Source: a virus
IMG/VR virus record: IMGVR_UViG_3300023184_000011
Location: 1 to 33,377 of that record
Length of the DNA stretch: 33,377 nucleotides
Strand: one strand, 5' to 3'
Below, piece after piece: positions 4,949 through 32,076 of this stretch. Numbering within the stretch: position 1 is the stretch's first letter; every line of letters begins with the position of its first letter. The notes beneath the pieces are model-generated. The model searched no databases and was not told the origin of the DNA. It saw nothing but the letters and a program-made list of their open reading frames with translations. The position numbers and the translations under genes were made by a program.

Positions 4949-5689
4949 ATGAATTCAAAAAGCGTATTAAAAAGAATAATGGCATTGTTATCAACAGAAG
5001 AAGTTGAATTAACAGATGCTAAAGATGCACAAGGTCAAATCTTACAATCTCCAACTTTTGATGTAGGTGAGCCAGTTGAAGTAGTTCACGAAGATGGAAC
5101 AAAGTCTCCAGCACCAGATGGTGAGCATGAAATCTCATTAAAGGATAGTGAAGGAAACGATGTAATCATTAGAGTAATGACTAAAGATGGCAAAATCGTT
5201 GAAAGAGAAAATGTTGAGATGGCAGATGTTAAAACTGAAGCAATCCCACAAGGAACAGGTGAAGAATTACCTGAGAACGAAAGACCTGAACAACCAAACT
5301 CAGTAAAATCTGGCACATTAAAGATGGCAGAAGAAGATGAGGAAGTAGAACCAATCCCTGCAACTGAAGACGAACCAATGGAAGAAGAAGGTGAAGACAA
5401 AGAAATCTCTATTGAGTTAGGTAAGAAGATGGAAGAGATGGCATACAGAATTGAAGAAATGGAAAAGAAGATTGCATCTATGGAAGCAATGTATCCTCCA
5501 GTTGCATCAGAAGTAATTCAAGAAGAAGAAGGAATTAAGATGGCTGAAGTAGACGAAGAAGAATTACCAAAATTAGATGGTGCTCCAATTGAAGAAAATG
5601 CAACTAAATTCTCTGCAGAAACAAAAAGAAATTATGGTAAGAAGATTGCAACTCCACAAAGTTCATTCTTATCTAAACTTTATAAATAA
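4949..5689 (+). CDS. Head scaffold (prohead core) protein
   Basis: This 246-residue protein is very acidic. The middle third is rich in E and D (EEDEEVEPIPATEDEPMEEE), followed by a coiled coil at about 150-185 (MEEMAYRIEEMEKKIASMEA) and a basic C-terminus ending SSFLSKLYK. That architecture, immediately upstream of the major capsid gene and co-transcribed with it, is what scaffolding proteins look like: an acidic body that fills the prohead and a basic tail that binds capsid subunits. It would be removed by the prohead protease, probably the gene at 22313. No protease motif is visible in the protein itself. Confidence 0.78.
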   Translation: MNSKSVLKRIMALLSTEEVELTDAKDAQGQILQSPTFDVGEPVEVVHEDGTKSPAPDGEHEISLKDSEGNDVIIRVMTKDGKIVERENVEMADVKTEAIPQGTGEELPENERPEQPNSVKSGTLKMAEEDEEVEPIPATEDEPMEEEGEDKEISIELGKKMEEMAYRIEEMEKKIASMEAMYPPVASEVIQEEEGIKMAEVDEEELPKLDGAPIEENATKFSAETKRNYGKKIATPQSSFLSKLYK

Positions 5690-26585: not shown

Positions 26586-27794
26586 CTATCTTCCAACCTC
26601 GCCTAAATACTTTTCTTTACACTCTTCCCAACTCATTCCAATCACATCATAATAGAAAAGCGTTTCAGGTTTCAGTTTATTTTCACTATGCAGTTTTAGA
26701 TATCTATTGATTGCTTTTGGTTTCCACCAATTCATAGTATAATCTAATCCTTGCATAAACTTTGGTTTCATTACCAAATGGTTTTCTTCTATTTTAGAAC
26801 ATAGAAAATCATTTCCGTTCTCATACATTCCTGCAAAATAAACACCTCTCTTAAATCCGTGATTATATGCACCCTGTTTTATTCCTAATTCTTTGAATAT
26901 TTTATTAAGGGTTTTTTGTTTCATTGATGATACTGGCCCTACATCATATCCCATACTTTGTCCATTCCTATCTCTCTCACGCATGATGTAAATATCATAC
27001 CAATCTTTGTGTGTAGTTTTTAACCATTGATGCCACGGGTCATAATACTTATCATCCGGCTTAATACTGATTAATCCTTTTGACTCACCAAGGGTTTTGA
27101 AATGTGGAATACCATTATACATTGAGTGAATACCATAAAGTGATGTAGTTAATACACCAACTAATTTATCTCCATAAGTTTCTTGCCAATGATTACGAAT
27201 TTCTTCAGATGTAGTAAGTGCAGCAATTAATTTACCACCTATAAAGTTATAACCAAAAGGTTGTGTTGAAACAATAGATGTTGCAATCGTAGTATTATTT
27301 AATTTACCATTAACAAACTTATCTTCTTTATTCCAACCGATATATGCATCTCTAACACCTAAACTGGTAATATCACTCCCTAACGAAATTAAACCCAGCA
27401 ATTTTCCACTTTCTCTATCCCTTACATATATTTTCACATTACGACCAGGATTTGGGGTAAAATCCATTGTATGTATCATTCTGCGTGCATCTGACCATTT
27501 GGATGCATCATCACTATCTTTAACAATTTCAATAATAGGATAAATTGAATTGATTTCCTTAATGGTTAAATCTTTATTCATTAAATCCGTTGGCTTCCAA
27601 ATTGTATCGTAGTGAGATGCATACGCTGGTAAATTTGAATAGTTAGAATGTAAATCTTCATTTAACTCTACCCATTTTTTATATAAGGTTTGTTCTTGCA
27701 CGGACATACCTAATATGGTATCTAAATTATTGATAAGTTCACTTCTAGATTTATCGTAATCAAATGTTTCTATTGTAGTATCCCAGAACTTCAT
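26586..27794 (-). CDS. DUF4338/DruA-like protein
   Basis: This 402-residue protein is in the leftward block. The start at 27794 is chosen because it lies one base after the upstream stop and has an A-rich leader; an ATG ten codons earlier would overlap that gene. The middle (about 120-250) has VRDAYIGWNKEDKF, STQPFGYNFIGGKLIAALTT, then WQETYGDKLVGVLTTSLYG and HFKTLGESKG. This matches the layout of DUF4338, the family of the Druantia protein DruA, and resembles uncharacterised proteins common in marine phages. The C-terminal 100 residues include YNHGFKRGVYFAGMYENG and WWKPKAINRYLKLHSENK. The biochemical role is unknown; it could alter or protect DNA or act against competitors. Confidence 0.6.
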   Translation of the reverse strand: MKFWDTTIETFDYDKSRSELINNLDTILGMSVQEQTLYKKWVELNEDLHSNYSNLPAYASHYDTIWKPTDLMNKDLTIKEINSIYPIIEIVKDSDDASKWSDARRMIHTMDFTPNPGRNVKIYVRDRESGKLLGLISLGSDITSLGVRDAYIGWNKEDKFVNGKLNNTTIATSIVSTQPFGYNFIGGKLIAALTTSEEIRNHWQETYGDKLVGVLTTSLYGIHSMYNGIPHFKTLGESKGLISIKPDDKYYDPWHQWLKTTHKDWYDIYIMRERDRNGQSMGYDVGPVSSMKQKTLNKIFKELGIKQGAYNHGFKRGVYFAGMYENGNDFLCSKIEENHLVMKPKFMQGLDYTMNWWKPKAINRYLKLHSENKLKPETLFYYDVIGMSWEECKEKYLGEVGR

Positions 27795-27795
27795 T

Positions 27796-28044
27796 TTATT
27801 TATTTGGTTGAAATGGATTATCAAATGAGTCTTTTAATAAATCCTGATATGAGTATTCATTTAATCCCATATCCATAATATCTGGCGTATCTTCTAAATC
27901 AGTTTCATTTAACTCATCAATAATATCATTGAATTGATTGGTAATGTATTCTCTCTTACCATACAACATATTTGCATTACCTGTTTCTAACCAGATATAC
28001 TTTGAAAGTTCCTGTAATTTTTCTACTAATTGTTCTTTGTTCAT
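27796..28044 (-). CDS. Small acidic protein, leftward block
   Basis: This 82-residue acidic protein begins with a helix (KEQLVEKLQELSKYIWLETG), followed by an acidic stretch NETDLEDTPDIMDMG and a basic-to-neutral end. I do not recognise it. The ATG is preceded by AAATAAGTT, a leader shared with three other leftward genes, and a host-type promoter lies at 28061-28091. Its stop is one base from the next gene start, so the pair is coupled. Small acidic early proteins of phages often inhibit host factors; that is only a possibility here. Confidence 0.62.
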   Translation of the reverse strand: MNKEQLVEKLQELSKYIWLETGNANMLYGKREYITNQFNDIIDELNETDLEDTPDIMDMGLNEYSYQDLLKDSFDNPFQPNK

Positions 28045-28871: not shown

Positions 28872-28916
28872 TTAGAGATTTTCTAGCAAAAAACCTCGTT
28901 TTTTAGAGATTTTCTA
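28872..28916. repeat. 14-base direct repeat around a hairpin at the endonuclease 3' end
   Basis: TTAGAGATTTTCTA occurs at 28872-28885 and 28903-28916. On the minus strand the second copy encodes the last codons of the GIY-YIG gene and its stop. Between the copies a hairpin AAAAAAC-gag-GTTTTTT can end its transcript. Confidence 0.7.
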
Positions 28917-29349
28917 ATGATTTGAATATATACCCTTTTGTAGATTTTTGATGGCCATTTAATACATTCCAAATAAGTGAAACATAAATATTTAAGTTTT
29001 TACTAGCTTCTAAAATTGATGAAAATTTACCTATTTCATTTCCTGATAAATTATATGCAATAATTCCAACTTTTCTAGCATCAGTTCCGTTTTTTTGAAT
29101 TGATTTACATAATCTTTTAGAAATTTCCCTATCACTTTCAAATCCTAATTGTTTTTGTAATTTATGCTCAAAATCTAATGCAGCTTTTTTAGTTTTGTAT
29201 TCTTTTATAATTTTATAAGATATGTCTTTACGATTATGAAATTTTCCATTTTTACATTTATGCACTCTAAATCTTTTTATAATATTTGAAGTATGACCTA
29301 CATATTCAATTTCATTTTTTTGATTTACTAACTGATAAACTACATACAT
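28903..29349 (-). CDS. GIY-YIG homing endonuclease with NUMOD1
   Basis: This 148-residue protein starts at 29349 (MYVVYQLVNQ), where the shared leader AAAAGTT precedes the ATG; an earlier in-frame ATG at 29394 lies inside the promoter. The GIY-YIG nuclease domain covers about 1-90: VVYQLVN and YVGHT form the two strands, with R26 and E61 as likely catalytic residues. A NUMOD1-like DNA-recognition module follows at about 97-143 (NLSGNEIGKFSSILEASKNL, then IWNVLNGHQKSTKGYIFK). Such free-standing nucleases spread between related phages by cutting genomes that lack them. It is divergent from the structured RNA and separated from it by about 100 bases. Confidence 0.86.
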   Translation of the reverse strand: MYVVYQLVNQKNEIEYVGHTSNIIKRFRVHKCKNGKFHNRKDISYKIIKEYKTKKAALDFEHKLQKQLGFESDREISKRLCKSIQKNGTDARKVGIIAYNLSGNEIGKFSSILEASKNLNIYVSLIWNVLNGHQKSTKGYIFKSLENL

Positions 29350-29365
29350 AACTTTTAATTTTATA

Positions 29366-29395
29366 CAATATACAAAATAATTTTCACTTTGCAAA
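29366..29395 (-). promoter_or_regulatory. Host-type promoter for the GIY-YIG gene
   Basis: On the minus strand: TTTG (29395-29392), 19 bases, TATATTG (29372-29366), close to TAnnTTTG. It carries the same 16 bases TTTTGCAAAGTGAAAA as the promoter at 28061-28091. Confidence 0.7.
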
Positions 29396-29423
29396 ATAAA
29401 ATAAATTCATAAACATTTTGTAT

Positions 29424-29453
29424 TTTGGAAAATCTTTCGTATATTTATTTTTG
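29424..29453 (+). promoter_or_regulatory. Host-type promoter for the structured RNA
   Basis: TTTG at 29424-29427, 18 bases, TATTTTTG at 29446-29453, a perfect TAnnTTTG. A start near 29457 would begin the non-coding RNA. It is divergent from the GIY-YIG promoter. Confidence 0.8.
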
Positions 29454-29456
29454 TTA

Positions 29457-29923
29457 AAACCTAAAATCTAAACAAGGTATTATATCATAGAGGTAGTTTA
29501 CGAATACAACGCCCTTTCACTACTAACTAAATATAATAAGAAATTGAGTCACAGTGCATTAGTTGAAATACTTAAAAGACTGGAAGGTGTCTCCTAAAAT
29601 CCTCTTATAATGGTAAAAGACAGTTTTAGGATGTTGCGAATAAATTGAATAAGCAAAGTGTCACTCCAATTAGAAGTAGTGAGATTATACACAGCACTTG
29701 ATTATTATTTTTTTTAAGTAGTAATCACGAAAGGTGTTGTGTATCCATTAGAAGAAAATACGACATTGCTACTCTTGATTTAATACTATTTTTTTGAATA
29801 GTGTTATATATCAGTGAGACTTAAACAATGCTGCTTCTTTATTAATTCTAAACTTATAAGCAGTGTCTCACTTCTAATATACAAAGCCCAGTTCCTGCCA
29901 TGTTTCTGGGCTTTCTTTTTGCG
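29457..29923 (+). ncRNA. Large structured non-coding RNA (about 465 nt), family not recognised
   Basis: No reading frame of note covers 29395-30004. The stretch has a host-type promoter, many compensating helices and an intrinsic terminator. Helices seen: TCCTAAAA/TTTTAGGA (29592-29599 with 29624-29631) with TCTT/AAGA inside; TTGC/GCAA (29634, 29653); TCACT/AGTGA (29661, 29678); a long stem TACACAGCAC/GTGTTGTGTA (29688, 29734) enclosing a 12-pair stem with two G-U (29699-29727); ATTAGAAG/CTTCTAAT (29747, 29871) closing a 3' domain; AATACTATT/AATAGTGTT (29782, 29797); TGAGAC/GTCTCA (29815, 29865) enclosing CTGCTT/AAGCAG. CCTTTC (29512) can pair with GAAAGG (29729) as a pseudoknot. Size and form recall large phage RNAs such as GOLLD or ROOL, but I see no shared motif. 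It could instead be a leader. Confidence 0.72.
29883..29920 (+). terminator. Terminator of the structured RNA
   Basis: AAAGCCCAG (29883-29891) and CTGGGCTTT (29906-29914) form a perfect 9-pair stem, followed by CTTTTT. It defines the 3' end of the RNA and separates it from the rightward early operon. Confidence 0.92.
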
Positions 29924-29955: not shown

Positions 29956-29978
29956 AATATTTGGTATTATCAAATATT
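29956..29978. promoter_or_regulatory. Operator candidate at the early operon start
   Basis: AATATTTG and CAAATATT form a perfect 8-base inverted repeat with a 7-base centre. It lies at the expected transcript start of the early operon, where a bound repressor would block transcription. The operon encodes a ribbon-helix-helix protein (30390) that could bind it. Confidence 0.5.
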
Positions 29979-30004
29979 TTACTTATATTACATTAAATCA
30001 AAAC

Positions 30005-30379
30005 ATGGCAATGGAACAGATTGAAATTAAACAACACCCACTATTTACACATTACGGAGCAGATGCAGATGGAAACATCTATTCATTAAAGTTTGGTAAA
30101 ATTAAAGAACACATACAATCTCCACATCAGAGAGGTTATCTACATTTTACTGCAACTCAATACGGAAATAGAAAATCTTATTTATCTCACAGATTTATCT
30201 ATGAATGTTTTCATGGTATGATACCTTATGGTTTACAGATAAATCACATTGATTGTGACAAACATAATAATAAATTATACAATTTAGAATTAGTTGACCA
30301 ATGGGAAAATATGAGACATGGTAAAGAGAATGGTATCTTATATGGTGCAGCAAATCCAAATTACAGCAGAATATATTAA
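30005..30379 (+). CDS. HNH homing endonuclease
   Basis: This 124-residue protein has the HNH_3-type signature: H62 in LSHRFIYECFHG, then LQINHIDCDKHNNKLYNLEL with N80-H81-I82-D83 and N88/N89 as the metal-binding and catalytic set, ending with WENMRHGKENG. The N-terminal 55 residues (DGNIYSLKFGKIKE and following) look like a NUMOD4-type DNA-contact part. A second ATG at 30011 is a possible start. It is the first gene of the rightward early operon. Together with the GIY-YIG gene it flanks the structured RNA, which suggests that mobile endonucleases have settled on both sides of it. Confidence 0.85.
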   Translation: MAMEQIEIKQHPLFTHYGADADGNIYSLKFGKIKEHIQSPHQRGYLHFTATQYGNRKSYLSHRFIYECFHGMIPYGLQINHIDCDKHNNKLYNLELVDQWENMRHGKENGILYGAANPNYSRIY

Positions 30380-31302: not shown

Positions 31303-31519
31303 ATATCATCCTCTAACAGAAGCTGAATTTAACGAAATCTCTGAATTTATACTAAACCTAGGTGCTTATCTGCCTGATAATAAAGCATCTTGGGTTTGGT
31401 CTACATTCAATAAGTTAAGAGATGAAAACGAAAACCAACCATGTACCTGTGCATCATCTGCAGGACATTGGAGAAGAGCAGTAGATTATATCTTTAATTG
31501 GGTAAAAGAAAGAATGTAA
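31292..31519 (+). CDS. Conserved small early protein with Cys-His cluster
   Basis: This 75-residue protein has a helical first half (LTEAEFNEISEFILNLGAYL) and a conserved second half QPCTCASSAGHWRRAVDYIF. The C-x-C-x-x-x-x-x-H pattern could bind a metal. The same C-x-C...H-W-R-R-A-(V/I)-D block occurs widely in Bacteroidota phages as a hypothetical protein. It overlaps the sigma-like gene by one base (TAATG), so the two are translationally coupled, and a joint role in transcription is possible. Confidence 0.66.
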   Translation: MENKYHPLTEAEFNEISEFILNLGAYLPDNKASWVWSTFNKLRDENENQPCTCASSAGHWRRAVDYIFNWVKERM

Positions 31520-32076
31520 TGATAACAGGCAGTTGTGAATGTGAAAGAAGATTAATCAATCTACATAGTGAGTCACATAAGTGGTTGTTAAACTCTGCAA
31601 ATAAAATCACACACAATAGAGAAGAGAGTGAAGATTTAGTTCAAGAACTTTACATCTATTTGCATGAGAAGTGTAATCCTAAACTATTCTGGGGAGATAA
31701 ATCTTATAATCTATTCTACGCATCAAAGTTTCTACATAGCAGATTTATCAACAAAACAAAGAAGTTAAATCGGACAACCTTAGTAGATGAAGTATGGAGT
31801 AATGAAGAGGACATACCATATGATGAAGAAAGAGATTTACAGATACAGAAAACACATGATGAAGTAATCAACGAACTAAAGAAACTATCCACAACAAGAA
31901 TGTGGCCATCTGCAAAGATATTTGAATTGTATTGGATGTCAGATGATACATTAGATGAAGTAGCAAGAAAAATAAAAATAAGTAAATCAACTACTTTCTT
32001 AGCAGTAAAGAAAATAAGAAAGTATCTAAAAGAAGTTATAGAAAACCCATTTGATGAAAAGGACAAAACAATTTGA
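31519..32076 (+). CDS. ECF-like RNA polymerase sigma factor
   Basis: This 185-residue protein starts at 31519, coupled to the upstream stop. Residues 17-85 resemble sigma region 2: HKWLLNSANKITHNREESED followed by LVQELYIYLHE (the 'ESEDLVQE' core contact block) and a helix with FLHSRFINKTKKLNR. Residues 133-172 form a helix-turn-helix like region 4 (IFELYWMSDDTLDEVARKIK, then KSTTFLAVKKIRKYLK). It has no region 1 or 3, as in ECF factors. It lies in the early operon under a host-type promoter. It is the obvious candidate to recognise the two-box element found seven times upstream of virion genes. Confidence 0.78.
   Translation: MITGSCECERRLINLHSESHKWLLNSANKITHNREESEDLVQELYIYLHEKCNPKLFWGDKSYNLFYASKFLHSRFINKTKKLNRTTLVDEVWSNEEDIPYDEERDLQIQKTHDEVINELKKLSTTRMWPSAKIFELYWMSDDTLDEVARKIKISKSTTFLAVKKIRKYLKEVIENPFDEKDKTI

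Follow-up and report, generated by a model that had tools for sequence, protein, structure and literature searches.

A structured phage RNA module whose terminator loop is complementary to the start of a homing endonuclease gene: a probable antisense regulator

Introduction

In IS10, the mRNA of a selfish DNA enzyme is bound at its start by the loop of RNA-OUT, a short hairpin RNA. The phage homing endonucleases I-TevI and SegB of T4 and MobE of Aeh1 are restrained by RNA hairpins that act in cis to prevent translation, and transcripts from an internal promoter escape this control (PMC2988022). The structured C4 antisense RNA of phages P1/P7 prevents translation of a nearby mRNA, with whose ribosome binding region its loops pair, and the antisense RNA CfrI of cyanophage S-PM2 is linked to the homing endonuclease gene F-CphI (PMC12197685). 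Large structured noncoding RNAs of unclear function are also described, among them GOLLD, ROOL and OLE (PMC12286853). The present work concerns a gene-free gap within IMG/VR virus record IMGVR_UViG_3300023184_000011 (positions 1 to 33,377; this whole stretch of 33,377 nucleotides is termed the window). An initial annotation, made by a model from the letters of the window, had proposed that this gap encodes one large structured RNA of about 465 nt (29457-29923). We report that the RNA is composed of two parts, and that its last ~120 nt are probably a small antisense RNA that blocks translation of the HNH-type homing endonuclease gene lying downstream.

Results

Recurrence and covariation of the 3' module

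The widely recurring part of the RNA was limited to the last ~120 nt (29803-29923), a hairpin followed by an intrinsic terminator, which a covariance model located in more than 50 related phage contigs. A downstream sigma-like protein (A4) was used as a query and yielded 66 loci; among the 69 sources searched, the hairpin covariance model had matches in 36 (E < 0.001), plus weaker ones, and some of the loci without the module are short contigs that may stop before its position. A further 26 module matches (E < 0.01) came from an independent fetch by a small-terminase-like protein, and none was obtained from 850 kb around the DruA-like protein, which served as the specificity control. One minus-strand, module-like match (locus L146, 5407-5488, 26.9 bits) has no terminator and was taken as a chance match. 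No isolate or prophage carrying the system was found in 50,697 phage records or in GTDB genome scans. Within the hairpin, 12 of 14 pairs showed changes on both sides and 98.0% of the cells were paired, compared with at most 51% for slid controls; an independent held-out set gave 13 of 14 pairs, with 96.9% of the cells paired.

Complementarity of the terminator loop to the endonuclease start

The strong terminator noted in the initial annotation is present, and in the window its loop is complementary over ten contiguous nucleotides to the region where translation of the HNH gene starts (Table 1). When the 13-nt loop core was compared with all 33,365 plus-strand positions of the window, the HNH start was the best match. 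The loop motifs of the related modules (TGCCAT, TGTCAT, TTGCTAT, TGCCAAT) are kept despite changes within the stems, are complementary to sequence around the start of the gene downstream, and fall into classes that track their own targets: TGCCAT with ATGGCA, TTTGCCAAT with ATTGGCAAA, TGTCATT with AATGACA, and TTGCTATT with AATAGCAA. Across 44 loci the match of each loop to its own target averaged 7.59 nt, against 5.80 nt with permuted partners (z 8.3; 0 of 20,000 permutations), and 12 held-out loci that were fetched after the hypothesis had been formed gave 8.00 against 6.12 nt (4 of 20,000). Reversed and sense controls gave 4.75 and 3.57. The longest contiguous matches were 13 nt (L089), 11 nt (L217) and 10 nt (the window, L128, L120, L107, L144 and L225). 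The match precedes the predicted ATG in L136, L117, L130 and L107, and so is not merely a match to a start codon.

Several results weigh against reading this complementarity as a functional pairing. When the loop query was 15 nt long, the HNH start (24.0) was marginally outscored by one site inside a coding region of the window (24.5). About 10 of the 44 loci had only 3-5 matching nt (e.g. L102, L101, L002, L084, L134, L146, L213), and no convincing target was found for L168, L172 or L124. Met-Ala starts (ATGGCA) are common, which makes the match of TGCCAT to ATGGCA partly trivial, and many of the loci are related, so that the permutation counts overstate their independence. These last two points speak for an ordinary terminator with a conserved loop, its match to the start codon being due to chance and shared ancestry. 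We regard this explanation as very unlikely: own targets were far better matched than the targets of other phages, the held-out set included, and the flanking letters follow as well, extending the matches to the lengths given above for L089, L217 and the window.

The loop and start region also form an inverted repeat ~100 bp apart, which might be a signal at the DNA level, i.e., a pair of inverted operator sites for the endonuclease or for another DNA-binding protein; intron endonucleases of T4 do bind operators that overlap their own late promoters (PMC2988022). However, the two arms were always the terminator loop and a position at or just before a start codon, never over a promoter, their letters vary between phages, and in L088 and L152 the second arm lies at a gene ~0.8 kb away. 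This alternative seems to us about as improbable as a chance match.

Proposed target genes and divergent modules

The first gene downstream encodes an endonuclease of the HNH or GIY-YIG type in essentially all of the 44 loci; 17 of these genes have a match to HNH_3 and 26-28 to other endonuclease PHROGs, many with a Cys motif at the N terminus and a GIY-YIG-like motif at the C terminus. The loops of L088 and L152 match not the first gene but the second, ~0.8 kb from the module; L185, with a loop of the same class, matches the start of its first gene. The arrangement in L088 and L152 is consistent with insertion of an endonuclease gene between the antisense RNA and its target. L116 is an exception, with its match at a divergent slot protein. 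The L134 loop (TTGTGCCAT) is better matched to the starts ATGGCACAA and ATGGCACGA of two upstream genes (at 2312 and 4332) than to the endonuclease start, and the L134 RNA may have several targets.

In the window and most relatives a promoter separates the loop from its target, which lies ~105 nt away on the same strand. The loop could act in cis only, by sequestering the start in readthrough transcripts while transcripts from the internal promoter escape, and no free small RNA (sRNA) would be made; T4 endonucleases such as I-TevI are controlled in cis (PMC2988022). We consider this explanation unlikely, though less so than the two preceding ones. The strong terminator stands ahead of the target, and in L116, L203, L195, L170, L179, L181 and L182 the module points away from its target gene and still retains 7-9 nt complementary to the start of that gene. 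Several of these divergent modules have a good promoter of their own directly upstream (TATCTTTG, TACATTTG, TAAGTTTG). The complementarity retained in divergent modules points to a free RNA that would act in trans, with the proviso that the 7-nt matches are weak individually. In L182 (~6565) and L181 (~6000) a four-codon open reading frame (ORF), ATGGCACATCTCTAA, is present opposite the module strand, and nine of its bases are complementary to the module loop.

RNA-A and its separation from the 3' module

The region 29457-29923 (plus strand) has a minimum free energy of -108.5 kcal/mol, compared with -86.6 +/- 6.0 for shuffled sequences (z -3.7), and has relatives in other phage contigs, in agreement with the original proposal of a real structured RNA in the gap. 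Its 5' domain, designated RNA-A (~290 nt, helices P1-P5), is present in nine contigs; relatives occur in L002, L084, L088, L089 and L092 and, in part, in L095, L096 and L099, those beyond L002 having been detected by exact-pattern scans. The L002 copy is 79% identical (blastn, nhmmer). In the alignments the loops are invariant and the stems variable: two sequence types build P2, P3b, P4 and the inner stem of P3 from different letters. Double changes were scored by RNAalifold in four column pairs, which is probably an undercount, as indels shift the stems within the alignment. Compensating changes in relatives, which the initial annotation had named as a check, were thus found in the helices of RNA-A and were very strong in the 3' hairpin. 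The window has an extra hairpin between RNA-A and the module (29783-29805, ATACTAT-TTTTTTG-AATAGTGTT) with a U run in its loop that may be compared with the U8 loop of P5; it is not conserved in L002.

The two parts recombine independently. L095 and L101 share 99.7% identity across 691 bp from the module onward but have unrelated sequences ahead of it; the same holds for L152 and L088, with 88.9% identity starting at the module, and L084 and L088 show the reverse pattern. In L092 and L099 an ORF separates RNA-A from the module. Together, these results identify the 5' edge of the module as a recombination joint, and RNA-A and the 3' module as separable. The single ~465-nt unit first proposed therefore holds in so far as a structured RNA extends from promoter to terminator, but it comprises two modules. 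A possible alternative is that RNA-A and the module form one large functional RNA, e.g., host-directed or packaged, to which the loop match is secondary. RNA-A is well conserved, structured, and located behind a strong promoter, and other phages substitute a different structured RNA after a nearly identical promoter. Against this, the parts recombine separately, ORFs stand between them in two loci, and most module loci lack RNA-A; we doubt this alternative about as much as control in cis alone. No result pointed to packaging, which had also been suggested.

The initial annotation mentioned a possible pseudoknot, and a pairing of 6 bp between the P3 loop and the terminator loop can be drawn (-7.0 kcal/mol vs -21.2 for the HNH target). 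A pseudoknot as the main function is possible, but it is weaker than the target pairing and is unavailable to phages without RNA-A; the terminator loop is better read as free for its target. Speculatively, the target-like P3 loop might serve as an internal decoy that masks or tunes the antisense loop.

Other occupants of the RNA-A position

Elsewhere the position of RNA-A is taken by a protein gene directly before the module, by a second structured RNA (RNA-B), or by a third sequence (L146). RNA-B was found in 12 loci (L113, L109, L144, L105, L128, L138, L225, L232, L212, L185, L191, L189) and consists of a 5' hairpin with a GAAA loop, G-rich runs (GAGGGGGGTAAGGGGGG), and then a long hairpin between two AAATCAT-like motifs. 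Its promoter, seen in L128 and L109, is nearly identical to that of RNA-A. The gene-free sequence of L146 (~5120-5500, plus strand) lies behind the same promoter type and is unlike either RNA-A or RNA-B.

Gap, promoters and neighboring genes

The gap is bounded by a divergent GIY-YIG gene (ATG at ~29349, with its ORF listed to 29394) and by the HNH gene starting at 30005, i.e., two homing endonuclease genes as originally described, and no convincing ORF was found between them. A hidden protein was rejected on this ground and because indels of 1-2 nt between relatives disrupt every frame. The predicted promoter of the RNA fits the Bacteroidota consensus TAnnTTTG / TTTG (PMC7366714), and the host-type -7 box proposed for it (TATTTTTG) was upheld. 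The promoter-like element between terminator and HNH gene would allow HNH mRNA to begin without the loop, and this arrangement is shared by relatives. A search of Rfam with the RNA gave no match at the gathering threshold and sub-threshold noise at a permissive threshold, in keeping with its description as an unrecognized large RNA. Identity as a tRNA or transfer-messenger RNA was rejected (no ARAGORN or Rfam match), as was identity as a group I or group II intron (no Rfam match, and the RNA sits between two complete genes and not inside an interrupted gene).

The portal protein of the window is a distant relative (33%) of that of Nonlabens phage P12024S. The window also encodes a DruA-like protein (26586-27824, minus strand; Pfam DruA, 1.4e-19), relatives of which are encoded by 149 viral-contig stretches. 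A small protein with weak matches to sigma-70 region 2 (Pfam Sigma70_r2) and to helix-turn-helix domains (31498-32076, plus strand) lies upstream of the terminase genes and is conserved in the phage group.

Table 1. Position and properties of the features assigned to the gap and its flanks (window coordinates).
Feature	Position	Strand	Remarks
GIY-YIG endonuclease gene, divergent, far side of gap	28903..29394	-	Pfam GIY-YIG, NUMOD1
Predicted promoter of the RNA	29423..29453	+	TTTTGG (-33 type) at 29423; TATTTTTG (-7 type) at 29446-29453
RNA-A, structured conserved 5' domain, helices P1-P5	29457..29760	+	Relatives; helices kept by different letters
RNA-A hairpin P3	29592..29631	+	Conserved loop TATAATGG at 29606-29613, able to pair with terminator loop
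RNA-A hairpin P5, invariant run of eight U	29688..29745	+	
Hairpin of 3' antisense module	29803..29881	+	GTGAGAC + bulge TTAAACAAT + GCTGCTT pairs with AAGCAGT + GTCTCAC; covariance-model matches, covariation
Intrinsic terminator hairpin, presents antisense loop	29883..29914	+	Stem letters vary between phages, loop motif kept
Putative antisense loop TGCCATGTTT	29896..29905	+	Complementary 10/10 to 30001-30010
Promoter-like TTTGG...TATATTA, between terminator and HNH gene	29960..29990	+	
Proposed target AAACATGGCA, translation start region of HNH gene	30001..30010	+	Pairs with loop TGCCATGTTT
HNH endonuclease gene, proposed target	30005..30379	+	Pfam HNH_3 1.5e-11; PHROG HNH endonucleases

Discussion

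We propose that the loop of the terminator hairpin of a free sRNA would pair with the HNH mRNA around its start codon; this mRNA can begin at its own promoter downstream of the terminator. Since the pairing covers the start codon or the leader, blocked ribosome entry is its natural reading, and the endonuclease would thereby be kept low or late; the same loop could silence readthrough transcripts in cis. In the window the sRNA would be the 3' end of a longer transcript, with RNA-A as a separate structured module at its 5' end. The earlier guess that the RNA is a regulator is thus retained for its 3' quarter, which reads as antisense to the endonuclease start; its 5' domain is one of several occupants of a slot. 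Either the phage tames endonucleases by means of RNA, or the endonuclease cassette may bring its own brake, and the linkage seen in L095 and L101 fits a cassette. More tentatively, and with somewhat less than even confidence, we suggest that this is a dedicated locus for free-standing homing endonucleases, each kept in check by an antisense RNA acting in trans. The terminator loop of that RNA would be retuned at each endonuclease exchange or travel with the endonuclease as a cassette, and an upstream slot would take interchangeable large structured RNAs (RNA-A, RNA-B and the L146 sequence), of which two follow an early promoter of one type and whose activity is perhaps host-directed.

If correct, these results represent a case, drawn at the level of sequence, of selfish phage endonucleases controlled by an antisense RNA that changes together with its target, and they would extend the local hairpins of T4 to a modular and probably trans-acting system within dozens of related phages. 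In phages of the Bacteroidota type they would also provide an example of RNA control; for Bacteroides, an obvious Hfq or ProQ is not known (PMC7366714). Two structured RNA families alternate at one position behind the same promoter type, and the pairing of loop and start would permit targets to be predicted from sequence.

Among the systems described, RNA-A is comparable to GOLLD, ROOL and OLE as a structured noncoding RNA, and differs in its size of ~290 nt and in having no Rfam match to any of them. RNA-OUT is encoded opposite its target, so that its complementarity is automatic; in the window the loop and target are on the same strand and do not overlap, and as the proposed sRNA and its target are different stretches of DNA, their complementarity must be maintained by selection. 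CfrI is likewise antisense by overlap, and is psbA-linked; a modular structured sRNA with a retuned loop is not described in that account (PMC12197685). I-TevI, SegB and MobE resemble the present system in that an RNA structure restrains endonuclease translation and an internal promoter escapes it. Their hairpins, however, are local and act in cis by covering the ribosome binding site, which no single local hairpin sequesters here; the loop is part of a separate terminated RNA unit, located ~105 nt upstream or, in certain phages, on the other strand, and is common to unrelated endonucleases. The module would work like C4, having a loop complementary to the ribosome binding region of a phage gene close by, and is not a member of that family, for which there was no Rfam match at the gathering or permissive threshold; the target of C4 is an antirepressor, whereas here it is an endonuclease, and the antisense loop is carried by the terminator hairpin.
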